Shown piece after piece: positions 1,356 through 5,942 of a stretch of DNA of 64,000 nt. This stretch comes from Aeromonas enteropelogenes (GTDB lineage Bacteria; Pseudomonadota; Gammaproteobacteria; Enterobacterales; Aeromonadaceae), in NCBI RefSeq assembly GCF_000819845.1, contig NZ_CDCG01000011.1, positions 124,001-188,000 of the forward strand. The letters run 5' to 3'. Each line of letters starts with the position of its first letter. The stretch's first letter is position 1. The notes below the pieces were generated by a model. The model did not search any database and was not told the origin of the DNA. It saw only the letters and a program-made list of their open reading frames with translations. The translations under genes and the position numbers were made by a program.

Positions 1356-1546
1356 CTTCTATCCCTTTGTGGCTAACTTATCCTGATAATGCCTCTTTTG
1401 AGGCCCAATGAAAGTGCTTTCAATCACAGAACATTCGTCGTGACGATTATTAAGTGACTTTGTTGTCAGTAATGTGATGTGCCGAGGGGGTAATCAGACT
1501 TTCAAGAGTCAGACGGGATGGCAAAGGGAAGGGGGAAAGAAGGATG

Positions 1547-1570
1547 GCCCCTGCCAGCGGTGGCAGGGGC
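1547..1570 (-). terminator. Putative terminator after secF
   Basis: Perfect 10-bp inverted repeat (GCCCCTGCCA / TGGCAGGGGC) with a 4-nt loop, starting 7 bp beyond the secF stop. On the minus strand it is followed by a pyrimidine-rich but not purely T run, so termination strength is uncertain. Confidence 0.55.
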
Positions 1571-1577
1571 GCTGGGG

Positions 1578-2510
1578 TTATGCCTCCTGAGGCAGAGGCT
1601 CCGCCTGTTTCTGATACGCCTGGGGTGTCAGTCCCAGCAGCTCCTGCACCGTCGATGCGACCGTGATGGAGGAGATGGTTCCTACTAGGATGCCGATAAA
1701 CAAGATGAAGGAGAAGCCGTAGAGGGCATCCCCCCCGAACAGCAGCAGGGCGCCCACGGTGAAGAGGGTGGTGCCCGAGGTGATCATGGTGCGGCTGAAG
1801 GTGGCCTTGATGGCGACATCGGAACACTCATGAATGTTCATCCTGGTGCGGGAGCTCAGCAGATCCCGCAGCCGATCCGAGATGACGATGCTGTCGTTCA
1901 GCGAATAACCGATCACCGCCATCAAGCCCGCGATCACATTGAGATCAAACTCGATGTTGCACAGCGCCAGCAGCCCAAGCGCGACGATGGCATCGTGCAC
2001 CACCGAGAGCAGGATGCCGATGGCTTGACGCCACTCGAAGCGAAACGCCAGATAGGCCGACATGGCCACCGAGGCTACCAGCACCGCCAGCATCCCTTGC
2101 TGGAATAGCTCGGCCCCCACCTGCGGGCCAACGATGGTGGTGCGCAAGAGCTCGACCGGCATGCCGAGTTGTTCCCCCAGCAGGGCGGCGAGCTCGGGGG
2201 CGGCCCAGGGCAGCTCGTGGGGCGGCAGCTTGATGAGCCATTCCCCCGGCACGCCCGCTGAGCTCAGTTCCAGCGCGCCGGCCAGCGGGGAGGTCAGCAT
2301 GGCGTTGAGCTCATGGGCCTCTTTCAGGGTCTGGATGTGAAACTCCAGCAAGATCCCGCCGGTAAAATCGAGCCCGAGGGTGAGGCCGTTCACCAGCAGG
2401 ATGGCGATGCTGGCCAGGGTCAGCAGGATGGAAGACCACAGACCGATGTAGCGCCAACGGGTCAGGCCCATGGCAACAATCATTCTCAACATGTTGTTTC
2501 TCCTGGCCAC
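1578..2510 (-). CDS. secF: Protein translocase subunit SecF (second-copy type)
   Basis: Inner-membrane partner of SecD that uses the proton or sodium motive force to pull exported proteins through SecYEG. The 310-aa product has an N-terminal membrane segment, the periplasmic LGLDFTGGILLEFH motif (about residues 46-59) and five further C-terminal hydrophobic segments including GYSLNDSIVISDRLRD, typical of SecF. It follows secD after about 100 bp. Neither yajC nor tgt is beside it, as would be usual for the primary secDF locus, so this is probably an additional secDF copy (inference; the other copy is not in view). Confidence 0.92.
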   Translation of the reverse strand: MARRNNMLRMIVAMGLTRWRYIGLWSSILLTLASIAILLVNGLTLGLDFTGGILLEFHIQTLKEAHELNAMLTSPLAGALELSSAGVPGEWLIKLPPHELPWAAPELAALLGEQLGMPVELLRTTIVGPQVGAELFQQGMLAVLVASVAMSAYLAFRFEWRQAIGILLSVVHDAIVALGLLALCNIEFDLNVIAGLMAVIGYSLNDSIVISDRLRDLLSSRTRMNIHECSDVAIKATFSRTMITSGTTLFTVGALLLFGGDALYGFSFILFIGILVGTISSITVASTVQELLGLTPQAYQKQAEPLPQEA

Positions 2511-2611
2511 CGAAGTGGCCTTGCTCGCGCAGGCGGACCTGCGCGAGATAAAAAGGGTGGCCGGCCTTGGTGCCGGCTGGTTGCGAAACTACTTGAGAGG
2601 GCGCTGGCCCA

Positions 2612-4414
2612 TCAGACCCTGAGGGTGTGCTCGCGGCTGCGTCCCCACAGGGGATTGATGATGGCGCGGGTGCCCCAGATCCCGGTGATCATGCTGGAGA
2701 CGAGCCCCAGGATGAGGGTGATGGAGAAGCCCTGCAGCGGTCCGGAGCCGATGGAGTAGAGCACCACGGCGCAGATCAGGGTGGTGATGTTGGCGTCGAA
2801 GATGGTGCGAAATGCCGAGCGATAGCCGAAATCGATGGCATTGGCGAGGCTGCCACCTTCACGCAGCCTATCCCTGATCCGCTCGAAGATGAGCACATGG
2901 GTATCCACCGCCATGCCCACGGTCAGCACCAGGCCGGCGATCCCCGGCAACGTCAGTACGGCGCCCGGCAGTACCGCCAGCATGCCGACCTGCATCAACA
3001 GGTTGCCGATCAGCGCCGTGATGGCCACCCAGCCGAACTTGCGATACCAGGCCATCATGAACAGCATCATGCCCGCCATGCCAAAAGCCAGGGCGGTGAA
3101 GCCCGCCTCGATGTTCTGCATGCCGAGGGTCGGGCCTATGCTGCGCTCTTCCAGGATCTTGAGCGGCGCGGTGAGGGCACCGGCGCGCAGCAGCATGGCC
3201 AGCTCTTGTGCCTCGGGCATGCTGGCAAGGCCTGTGATGCGGAACTGGTTGCCAAGGGCCGTCTGGATGGTGGCGACGTTGATCACTTCGCTGTGGGCTC
3301 TCAGGTGCCCCTGGGCATTGGTCTTGTACTCGGTGAAGACGGTGGCCATCGCCTTGCCCACGTGCTGGCGGCTGAACTGGTTCATCTTGCTGCCCCCCAG
3401 GGTGTCGAGCACGATATTGACCTGGGGCTGACCCATCTCTCCCATGCTGGCGCGGGCGTCGACGATATGCTCGCCGGTCAGCACCGGCTTGCGTGCCATG
3501 GGGATGGCCTGCCCGTGGCGATCGGACATATAGAAGTGGCTGTCAGCCTTGGTCTCGTAGAAAGCCAGGGAGGCGGTGGCCCCGATCACCTCTTTGGCCT
3601 GCTTGGGATTGTGCACCCCGGGCAGCTCGATGCGGATGCCCTCCTGCCCCTGGCGCTGGACCGTGGCCTCGACGATGCCGAGCTCGTTGATCCGTTTTTT
3701 CAGGATCGACAGGTTCTGGGTCACGGCGTTGTTGACCAGCAGGGTGCGCTCGGCCTCGCTCAACACCAGGCGCAGCTCGTTGTCGCTGCGGGTGAGTTGC
3801 CACTGCCCCTGCAGGGTACCGGCACTCTCCTTGACGATGGTGAGCCAGGGGGCCTGCTCGGCCGCCTCCGGCAGGGTCACGATCACGGTGCCCTGCTCGC
3901 TTCGCATCACGTTGGCGCCGCGCAGATGGGCATCACGAAAGCGGCTGCGCAGGGAGTCCACCAGATTGTTGGTCTGGGCGTCGATGACGAAATTGACGTC
4001 GACCCCGATCAGCAGCTGGGAGCCACCGCGCAAGTCCAGTCCGAGCTTGATGGGGGTGGCGCCGAGCCGGCTGATCCAGCCGGGAGCGTTGGAGTGAAAC
4101 TCCAGGGTCAGGGCGGCGCTGTCGACTCCCTGCTGCTCCAGCAACTGCTTGGCTCTTTGCTGTTCTTGCTGGGTGGCAAACACCAGCTCGACCTTGTCTT
4201 GCTGCTGCACCGTCTTGACCGGCGCGATCCGGTTTTCAGCCAGCAGCTGATGTTGACTGACGGTCAAGGCCGCTTGTCCGTGCAGGCCGAGGGAGGGTTG
4301 CTCACCGAAGAAGGTGGGCAGGGAGTAAAAGGTAAAGGTGAACAGCATCAGCAGCAGCAGTGCGTACTGCCACCTGCTCATGCGGTTGAGAATGGCGCTG
4401 TGATGTTTTCTCAT
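2612..4414 (-). CDS. secD: Protein translocase subunit SecD (second-copy type)
   Basis: Large subunit of the SecDF export motor. The 600-aa product starts with a membrane segment (about 14-34), has the IKLGLDLRGGSQLLIGV signature (about 122-138), a long periplasmic P1 domain and five C-terminal membrane segments with TVGMAVDTHVLIFERIRDRL, the SecD proton-path segment. The ATG at 4414 has GAGG nine bases upstream. That Shine-Dalgarno lies in a hairpin arm (see 4422-4442), and a small membrane protein gene ends 156 bp upstream, an arrangement resembling arrest-peptide control of secDF in other bacteria. Confidence 0.93.
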   Translation of the reverse strand: MRKHHSAILNRMSRWQYALLLLMLFTFTFYSLPTFFGEQPSLGLHGQAALTVSQHQLLAENRIAPVKTVQQQDKVELVFATQQEQQRAKQLLEQQGVDSAALTLEFHSNAPGWISRLGATPIKLGLDLRGGSQLLIGVDVNFVIDAQTNNLVDSLRSRFRDAHLRGANVMRSEQGTVIVTLPEAAEQAPWLTIVKESAGTLQGQWQLTRSDNELRLVLSEAERTLLVNNAVTQNLSILKKRINELGIVEATVQRQGQEGIRIELPGVHNPKQAKEVIGATASLAFYETKADSHFYMSDRHGQAIPMARKPVLTGEHIVDARASMGEMGQPQVNIVLDTLGGSKMNQFSRQHVGKAMATVFTEYKTNAQGHLRAHSEVINVATIQTALGNQFRITGLASMPEAQELAMLLRAGALTAPLKILEERSIGPTLGMQNIEAGFTALAFGMAGMMLFMMAWYRKFGWVAITALIGNLLMQVGMLAVLPGAVLTLPGIAGLVLTVGMAVDTHVLIFERIRDRLREGGSLANAIDFGYRSAFRTIFDANITTLICAVVLYSIGSGPLQGFSITLILGLVSSMITGIWGTRAIINPLWGRSREHTLRV

Positions 4415-4421
4415 GGCAAAT

Positions 4422-4442
4422 CGCCTCTGTCAGGAGAAGGCG
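4422..4442 (-). promoter_or_regulatory. Hairpin covering the secD ribosome-binding site
   Basis: On the mRNA, CGCCUU (coordinates 4442-4437) can pair with GAGGCG (4427-4422), leaving a 9-nt loop; the second arm contains the GAGG Shine-Dalgarno of secD. A second CGCCU-containing stretch lies further upstream in the leader (in the GCGCCUUGCC segment, about 4466-4475) and could compete for pairing. Seen in sequence; a regulatory role is inference. Confidence 0.4.
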
Positions 4443-4570
4443 CGCGGGCCGGCCCTTGGGGCAGGCAAGGCGCTAAAAAATAGAGATGCGAACAGGGCTG
4501 GATGACACCTGGGTGCAACCCGTCAAAGGGGAGGAGAAGCGCGAAAAAGAGATGTGCCAACCCCTCGGGG

Positions 4571-4990
4571 TCAGGCGGTCAGATAGCTCTGGCTGAAGCG
4601 GTATTGTAGATGCTGACGCTGCAGGCGGTGCCGGTGAATGGCACCGAAAAAGTCCCGAAAACTCTGTCTGTGATAGAGCAGGATGACAGGCGTCAGCCAG
4701 CCGAGCAGCAACAGCAGGATGGCCTCGGCAGACCAGCTGTGCACCAGCTCATAGACAAGGGTTCTGGGTTGAGTGTCATTGCGCTGGGATTGCTCGAGGC
4801 GCAGCAGATGATTCTGATGGGACGCGACAAACTTGATGATGCCGTCGTCGCTGTCGCTTGCCTGGGAGAGGGTATGGGTTTGCGTCGCCGCAGGCAGGCG
4901 TAGCCCTTCCACCTGGACGATGGAACAAAGCAGGGTGAAGGAGATGACCAGGGTCATCAGCACCAGTTTGACTTTGTCGATGGGACGCAA
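4571..4990 (-). CDS. Small two-segment membrane protein upstream of secDF; possible arrest peptide
   Basis: No family recognised. The frame is open from a GTG at 5056 (161 aa), but that GTG lies in a perfect hairpin just after the preceding gene. The TTG at 4990 (139 aa, product beginning MRPIDKVKLV) puts a basic N-terminus directly before the first hydrophobic segment and is preferred. Features, numbered from the GTG: hydrophobic segment 31-48, polar, presumably periplasmic part 50-111, second hydrophobic segment 112-128, then a 33-residue tail very rich in Arg, His and Gln (129-161). The tail is about as long as the ribosome exit tunnel. It lies immediately upstream of secD on the same strand, as VemP does in Vibrio and as MifM does upstream of yidC2 in Bacillus. 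No VemP arrest motif is visible. Confidence 0.65.
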   Translation of the reverse strand: MRPIDKVKLVLMTLVISFTLLCSIVQVEGLRLPAATQTHTLSQASDSDDGIIKFVASHQNHLLRLEQSQRNDTQPRTLVYELVHSWSAEAILLLLLGWLTPVILLYHRQSFRDFFGAIHRHRLQRQHLQYRFSQSYLTA

Positions 4991-5046
4991 ACGATCAATT
5001 CCAGAGAAACGAGAGGGGCAAGCTATCACAGGAGGCGGGATCGGAC

Positions 5047-5075
5047 AAGCCGGCACAGACCTGCCGTGCCGGCTT
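5047..5075 (-). terminator. Perfect hairpin after the DUF6279 lipoprotein gene
   Basis: AAGCCGGCAC and GTGCCGGCTT form a perfect 10-bp stem with a 9-nt loop, starting about 10 bp past the stop of the 5085-5942 gene. No T-run follows on the minus strand, so it may stabilise a mRNA end rather than terminate by itself. It separates that gene from the secDF unit. Confidence 0.4.
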
Positions 5076-5084
5076 GGGAGTGAA

Positions 5085-5942
5085 TCAACTGCCGGTCATC
5101 TGCGAAAAATCGCGGGCATATCCCTTGAGCAGGCTGTAGAGGTGGGCCCGTTGCGAGATGTCCAGTGACTGGCTCATGGCGCTCAGCCACTTGATGGTGC
5201 GTTGGCGCGATTGCTCGGTGTAGCCGGTGAAGCGGCCATCCATCAGGCCATCCCCCTGAGCCAGCAGATCGGTCAGCTCCCGGGTAAAATCCGGGCTCTG
5301 GCGCTGTTTCATCAACCGATCCAGCTCCAGGGTCCAGGAGGTCTGAAACTCGATCCAGGGGGGCATCAGCTCGTACTGCCACTCGGCCCACTGGGCCACC
5401 AGTGGTGCCTGGGCCGGTTTTACCTCGCCAATCCAGAACTCGAGCCGCTTGTTCATCTTGTCGCGAAACTCCGCCAGCATCTGCTCCTTCGGCTTATCGG
5501 AAAATTCCTGTTGCCGCTCCTGCTGGCGCTTGACCCTGTCTTGCATGAAGCGGGTCACCTGCTCGTCGGTCAGGGTGCGCGCAAGCCGCACCGCCCGAGG
5601 GATGGTGTCCTCGAGGGTGCGGGTCAGGCTCCCCTGCACCGCATCGAGATTGGTCTCGATTTGTGCCGGGGTCATGGGGCTGGCCACCGCTTTTGCCAGC
5701 ACATCGAGATCCCGGGCATAGCGGGGCAGCTCGTGTTGCCGGTGCCAGGCCATCAGCCCCTTCACCTCGCGGCTGAGCAGGCTCTTTTGCGAGGAGGAGA
5801 GGGCAAAATAGTCATCCAGTTGCCAGATGATGGCGGTGTCGAGCCAGTAGTAGATGATCCGGGTGGAGCAGCCCACCAGCATCAGCGTCAGCAGCAACAG
5901 ACCCCAGGTTTTCGGTTGGTACCAGCGCACCTTGTTTGTCAT
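5085..5942 (-). CDS. DUF6279-type lipoprotein
   Basis: Predicted 285-aa lipoprotein of unknown function. The N-terminus has a basic region, a hydrophobic stretch and a lipobox ending LMLVGC, putting the lipidated Cys at residue 25. The mature protein is mostly helical and charged, with the segment IIYYWLDTAIIWQLDDYF right after the lipidation site, which fits the DUF6279 family. It is the last gene of the hinT-to-lipoprotein cluster, 3 bp after the thiK homologue. Role inferred only as an envelope lipoprotein. Confidence 0.8.
   Translation of the reverse strand: MTNKVRWYQPKTWGLLLLTLMLVGCSTRIIYYWLDTAIIWQLDDYFALSSSQKSLLSREVKGLMAWHRQHELPRYARDLDVLAKAVASPMTPAQIETNLDAVQGSLTRTLEDTIPRAVRLARTLTDEQVTRFMQDRVKRQQERQQEFSDKPKEQMLAEFRDKMNKRLEFWIGEVKPAQAPLVAQWAEWQYELMPPWIEFQTSWTLELDRLMKQRQSPDFTRELTDLLAQGDGLMDGRFTGYTEQSRQRTIKWLSAMSQSLDISQRAHLYSLLKGYARDFSQMTGS

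Follow-up and report, generated by a model that had tools for sequence, protein, structure and literature searches.

Among arrest peptides, VemP is the closest described counterpart of the gene considered here. It stalls with Q156 in the P site (PMC5449182), and the vemP-secD2F2 operon has been called specifically conserved among Vibrio (PMC11470409). Pulling by transmembrane (TM) helices starts with about 45 residues between their N-terminal end and the peptidyl transferase centre and ceases once their C-terminal end is at that distance (PMC7886326), and the authors of a survey of arrest peptides argue that a sensing helix of N-out/C-in orientation needs a fixed distance (PMC10987492). An initial annotation of a 64,000-nucleotide stretch of Aeromonas enteropelogenes DNA (the window) had proposed that a small membrane protein encoded upstream of secDF has the layout of such a translation-arrest sensor. 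Here, the locus is compared across Aeromonas and with the SecD2 loci of other families, and the comparison suggests that the protein is probably a monitoring substrate akin to VemP, with a sequence of a new type.

A conserved gene upstream of secD2F2 in Aeromonas

The candidate gene (window 4571-4990, minus strand) is an open reading frame upstream of secD2-secF2 that terminates at 4571 and encodes a protein of 139 amino acids (Table 1). Its start codon, a TTG at 4990-4988, was assigned by cross-species comparison: the TTG and an upstream GGAA are kept throughout the core group of relatives, an in-frame stop lies shortly 5' of the TTG in several of them (loci L007, L008, L019, and L028), and in L028 a one-base deletion 5' of the TTG indicates that this stretch does not code for protein. 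A longer ORF that starts with GTG and reaches to 5056 was rejected as the gene because the frames upstream are closed in related species by these stops.

As the initial annotation had stated, the candidate lies directly upstream of, and on the same strand as, a second-copy secD-secF pair; both genes score over the cut-offs of their profiles, and another SecD is encoded elsewhere in the same genome. The candidate and secD2 are separated by 156 nt. Orthologues of the candidate are present in 36 of 37 Aeromonas genomes, with the order DUF6279 gene, candidate, secD2 in all 36 carriers, within what the loci show. The sole genome that lacks it (G035) has one SecD only, of the SecD1 type, and four genomes of a sister genus likewise have one SecD each (SecD1 type where placed in trees) and no candidate. 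In A. fluvialis (G013; L059, about 1438-3535), residues 50-483 of secD2 are lost, secF2 is broken, and the candidate is frameshifted; here the whole candidate-secD2-secF2 unit has decayed jointly. Whether the gene always precedes secDF had been named as a check, and among the 37 Aeromonas genomes it is never missing where secD2 is intact. Outside Aeromonas, 394 genomes of the order yielded no convincing relative, the best matches having E-values of about 0.001 and 20 bits. The 36 orthologues, the fixed gene order, and purifying selection (see below) establish the candidate as a real, conserved gene, beyond what chance would produce.

The neighbouring DUF6279 gene is always 5' of the candidate in Aeromonas and was not found in the 1.5 kb upstream of secD2 in other families. 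Between the two genes, a probable terminator and promoter were assigned by eye (Table 1); a consensus scan of the region returned neither an intrinsic terminator nor a sigma-70 promoter, leaving the by-eye call unconfirmed.

Table 1. Features of the candidate-secD2-secF2 locus (window coordinates) and of the related nqrE2 locus (coordinates of locus L044)
Feature	Position	Strand	Basis or remark
secF2, putative target	1578..2510	-	TIGR00966 over cut-off
secD2, putative target	2612..4414	-	NF009545 over cut-off; falls in SecD2 clade
secD2 Shine-Dalgarno AGAGG	4424..4428	-	CAGAGG invariant in 28 aligned spacers
Spacer hairpin 3, just upstream of secD2 ribosome-binding site	4440..4475	-	6/10 pairs vary on both sides among species
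Spacer hairpin 2	4500..4522	-	8/10 pairs vary on both sides among species
Spacer hairpin 1, begins in stop codon	4559..4571	-	95.7% of cells paired in alignment A1
Candidate arrest peptide / monitoring substrate, 139 aa, TTG start	4571..4990	-	Orthologues, conserved TTG, dN/dS well below 1
Tail, residues 107-139; candidate arrest end HLQYRFSQ, residues 127-134	4574..4672	-	L, Y/F, R, F invariant across the two paralogue groups
TM2, about residues 88-106	4673..4729	-	Constant distance to C-terminal motif
Conserved block HQNHLLRLEQSQRN before TM2, about residues 57-70	4781..4822	-	Highest identity in protein; dN/dS 0.13-0.14
TM1, about residues 9-27	4910..4966	-	Hydrophobic; AF2 helix 3-30
Probable DUF6279-gene terminator and promoter of candidate-secD2-secF2 unit (by eye)	5020..5075	-	Strong GC hairpin, then conserved TGTGGTAGNTTGCCC block
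DUF6279 gene	5085..5942	-	Putative lipoprotein by N-terminus
nqrE2 leader paralogue, HLQ[FY]RF end	L044:3064-3591	-	nqrE2 at L044:2310-2909 (-); also in 21 other genomes

Layout and selection

The protein consists, in order, of a basic N-terminus, TM1, a loop, a conserved block, TM2, and a tail of 33 residues that includes 6 Arg, 4 His, and 5 Gln and ends HLQYRFSQSYLTA. This is the layout that had been described from the window alone (hydrophobic N-terminus, polar part, second hydrophobic segment at about 88-106, Arg/His/Gln-rich tail). The protein had also been called unrecognised, and indeed no Pfam or NCBIfam family matches it, nor was a relative found among solved structures. An AlphaFold (AF2) model of modest confidence and low pTM (0.30) comprises a helix at residues 3-30 and a single long helix at 50-138, such that the tail is predicted to be helical and continuous with TM2.

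The tail, with a dN/dS of 0.15 in two species groups, and the block before TM2, with 0.13-0.14, are more constrained than the variable loop (0.3-0.5) and TM1 (0.4-0.5). Synonymous sites in the tail change freely (pS 0.44-0.52) while its dN/dS is low, indicating that selection on it is strong and acts at the protein level. The expectation that the tail would be more conserved than the rest of the protein thus held in part: the tail is well conserved, but not uniquely so, since the HQNHLLRLExSLR block just before TM2 is conserved to the same degree. Total length ranges from 139 to 158 residues across orthologues and loop length varies, whereas the distance from TM2 to HLQYRF is constant, with 27 residues from the end of TM2 at Y106 through R131F132 in 34 of 34 orthologues. 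Q134, four residues after Y130, is nearly invariant.

The slot of VemP in orthologous operons

An ORF with the VemP motif R...WK..N..[YF] lies upstream of secD2 in 19 of the 20 closest readable non-Aeromonas SecD2 loci. The 20 loci represent five families and the 19 motif-bearing loci fall in four. In a tree that includes both SecD copies, Aeromonas SecD2 groups with VemP-linked SecD2 and apart from SecD1 (100/100), and upstream of SecD1 neither the VemP motif nor the candidate motif was found. By this placement, Aeromonas SecD2 is the orthologue of VemP-linked SecD2, a closer match to VemP than the initial annotation knew of, and the position of the candidate in the operon is the slot of VemP; as judged from these comparisons, this is the strongest evidence for the arrest-sensor idea. 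The concern that 156 bp is too long a gap for direct coupling can be set aside, because the VemP-motif ORFs end 111-340 nt upstream of secD2 in the orthologous operons.

Two side observations concern the wider family of loci. The VemP-motif ORFs in the four non-Aeromonas families (L179-L197) precede SecD2 beyond the genus for which conservation of the operon was described. Further, one SecD2 locus (L198, genome G128) carries neither the VemP motif nor a candidate-like ORF upstream, and another type of leader may be present there.

The C-terminal end and possible descent from VemP

None of the motifs of known arrest peptides that were searched for (VemP, SecM, MifM, RAPP-like, KYxIW, LPPP, NAP/NSP-stop, and DGMK-stop) occurs in any of 34 candidate orthologues, and membership in a known arrest family by motif was accordingly rejected for every motif tried. 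For VemP this bears out what had been noted from the window's sequence, namely that its arrest motif is not visible: an RxxxWKxxNxxY-like motif occurs in 0 of 34 orthologues.

Common descent of the candidate and VemP is possible. In an hhalign profile comparison the two are colinear at the C-terminus, and the very weak match pairs YEL with YEL and HLQYRF with NLLYRF, with a score well short of significance (P 0.019, probability 2.4%). The end of one VemP group is NLLYRFISQADA, in which NLLYRFISQ stands opposite HLQYRFSQ of the candidate, and when the last 40 residues were compared with this group none of 200 shuffles scored as well. Among the VemP-motif ORFs of the SecD2 loci read, the Q that matches VemP Q156 lies five residues after the motif Y in this group and six in the classical type. 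Arg64, which is invariant and precedes the proposed stall by about 70 residues, may be compared with Arg-85 of VemP (PMC11470409). Such features would fit a candidate that is a direct, heavily diverged descendant of VemP and not an independent replacement, an origin compatible with its being a monitoring substrate. That origin is less likely than not; against it stand the low hhalign probability, the lack of the VemP motif's W, K, and N in 34 of 34 orthologues, and the other VemP groups, for which 13 of 200 shuffles do as well over the last 40 residues.

A structured spacer RNA and a paralogue upstream of nqrE2

In 28 core species the stretch from the stop codon of the candidate to the secD2 Shine-Dalgarno sequence contains three hairpins, and one of these hairpins keeps its pairing while its sequence differs between two species groups. 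Changes on both sides were observed for 14 of 25 pairs, and cells changed on both sides number 84, as compared with 34 +/- 4.5 in shuffled alignments and 17-40 when the pairing was slid. On this covariation evidence, the spacer RNA has a structure that is under selection. The spacer of the window itself is no more stable than its shuffled versions (z -0.03). In folding calculations, the cost of exposing the secD2 ribosome-binding site is about 10 kcal/mol at every position of the ribosome edge; simple unmasking of the site by a stalled ribosome was rejected on account of this constancy. A Rho-type C-rich spacer was also rejected, the C/G ratio being only weakly raised (median 1.33 versus 1.00 in the background).

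A paralogue of the candidate (25-34% identity in alignment) is encoded directly upstream of a lone nqrE-like gene, termed nqrE2 here, in 22 of the 22 genomes that have that gene. nqrE2 matches TIGR01940 at about 300 bits and is separate from a higher-scoring nqrE copy present in every genome. In the loci read, the paralogue and nqrE2 sit between recJ and lnt; the paralogue is absent from the window's own genome. The gap between them is about 150-200 nt, with a hairpin before the nqrE2 start codon that covaries in one species group; mean opening energy at nqrE2 fell somewhat only with the ribosome edge 75-90 nt past the stop. The tail of the paralogue reads LHRRxLxCHHLQ[FY]RFCHGD, with the end CHHLQFRFCHGD. 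Among nqrE2 leaders (e.g., L044, L047, and L038 versus L056 and L050), CHGD precedes the stop directly in some species, and in others six variable residues come after it, indicating that the conserved end is a motif and not the C-terminus as such. The occurrence of one leader-like protein before two unrelated genes, secD2 and nqrE2, argues for action in cis.

An alternative is that the candidate is an ordinary small membrane protein serving SecD2F2 as a partner or accessory, in the manner of YajC, with a conserved periplasmic block and a cytoplasmic tail, and that its place in the operon reflects function and not cis regulation. Co-loss of the candidate with secD2 fits such a partner too, as do a tail predicted to be helical and continuous with TM2 and the presence of two conserved segments, one of them outside the tail; a conserved motif before TM2 would also be expected of an ordinary protein, which weighs against stalling. 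A partner of SecDF is unlikely, however, since a paralogue with the same tail before nqrE2, a gene unrelated to SecD, in 22 of 22 genomes fits a cis regulator and is hard to explain for such a partner, and since a VemP-motif ORF fills this slot in orthologous SecD2 operons and a covarying, structured spacer lies 3' of the candidate. Very unlikely is a leader peptide that controls downstream genes apart from export sensing, through a constitutive stall, a stall on another signal (ions or membrane state), translational coupling, or Rho polarity: it would suit a tail common to two unrelated targets that may both touch sodium energetics, a structured spacer RNA, and a C/G ratio weakly favouring Rho, but the conserved TM1, the variable loop, and the fixed TM2 spacing would be superfluous in a simple leader, and the slot is that of VemP.

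Proposed mechanism of export monitoring

The monitoring-substrate reading implies that the candidate stalls its own translation, which we consider likely. Counting against it are the absence of known arrest motifs, the very weak profile match to VemP, an opening cost at the secD2 ribosome-binding site that stays the same whatever the ribosome position, and a window spacer no more stable than shuffles. We infer the stall, its site, the sensing of SecDF, and the route from stall to secD2 expression from comparison of sequences, and the location of the stall near Q134 is a guess from conservation. While export is working, TM1 would be inserted, the loop moved to the periplasm, and TM2 would be entering the membrane during translation of the final codons; the resulting pull on the nascent chain would prevent or end a stall near HLQYRFSQ and keep secD2F2 low. 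If SecDF1 were impaired, for example at low sodium, there would be no pull, the ribosome would be held by the tail near codon 134 and, in this stalled state, would raise secD2F2 expression through the structured spacer RNA. The geometry is compatible with the pulling range given above: a stall with Q134 in the P site would leave 43-47 residues between the peptidyl transferase centre and the start of TM2 (about 88-91). TM2 would be N-out/C-in if TM1 is N-in. The sister gene before nqrE2 probably acts alike on a second target.

If this is correct, sister lineages fill the slot before secD2F2 with proteins that differ in their C-terminal end while the scheme is kept, and the locus is naturally suited to exploring which features an arrest sequence requires; the fixed distance from TM2 to the motif offers a direct test of the force model. 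The nqrE2 leader would then be the first arrest-peptide candidate of its class beyond the secA, secDF, and yidC targets of published surveys, as far as could be found, and would link export with sodium respiration. More tentative, and less likely than not, is the proposal that such two-TM membrane-insertion sensors form a new family of arrest peptides, with an HLQYRF-type arrest end and two separate Aeromonas targets, secD2F2 (the spare export motor) and nqrE2 (a spare subunit gene of the sodium-pumping NADH dehydrogenase). Such a family would bring protein export and respiratory sodium pumping under a common type of nascent-chain sensor.

Comparison with known arrest peptides

The main text of a survey that screened 30,175 genomes by matching criteria makes no mention of Aeromonas (PMC10987492), a point against the monitoring-substrate reading. 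Searches of the literature, covering the main text of the surveys, found no paper joining Aeromonas with arrest peptides upstream of secDF and none joining nqrE with arrest peptides. The criteria of the 30,175-genome survey (PMC10987492) concern uORFs of sec or yidC for small unannotated proteins, C-terminal sequence conserved among homologues, more than 30 residues from the localization signal to the conserved end, and ribosome stalling that induces the gene downstream. The candidate is a small unannotated protein encoded by a uORF of secD2, its C-terminal sequence is conserved among homologues, and TM1 ends at about residue 27 with the motif at 127-134. The N-terminal signal or TM segment sought by analogy with VemP is represented by the hydrophobic residues 9-27 and the AF2 helix 3-30.

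With SecM, the candidate would share the general scheme of a force-released stall with downstream induction, but FxxxxWIxxxxGIRAGP is absent (0 of 34 orthologues) and the gene downstream is secD2, not secA. The RQH family, ApdA, and ApdP are, like the candidate, secDF uORFs with an N-terminal signal and a conserved C-terminus, whereas the RAPP-like motif near the C-terminus of RQH, ApdA, ApdP, and ApcA occurs in 0 of 34 candidate orthologues. MifM, upstream of yidC2 in Bacillus, is a membrane-inserted sensor, as the candidate would be, and the fixed TM-to-arrest distance is that expected of N-out/C-in helices (PMC10987492). The candidate differs from MifM in target (secD2, not yidC2), in its two TM segments, in a much shorter distance from TM2 to the end (33 versus a median of 54), and in motif, the RIxxWIxxxxxMN core of RIxxWIxxxxxMNxxxxDEED occurring in 0 of 34 orthologues. 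VemP shares with the candidate the slot before orthologous secD2F2, an N-terminal targeting segment, a spacer of similar length, a conserved C-terminal end and, in one VemP group, a possible common [NH]L[LQ]YRF..Q end; unlike VemP, the candidate lacks RxxxWKxxNxxY, has a second TM segment before the tail, and has a paralogue upstream of nqrE2. As a monitoring substrate the candidate is known in kind; it is new in sequence and in its two-TM topology and, if the sister gene acts alike, in its range of targets.
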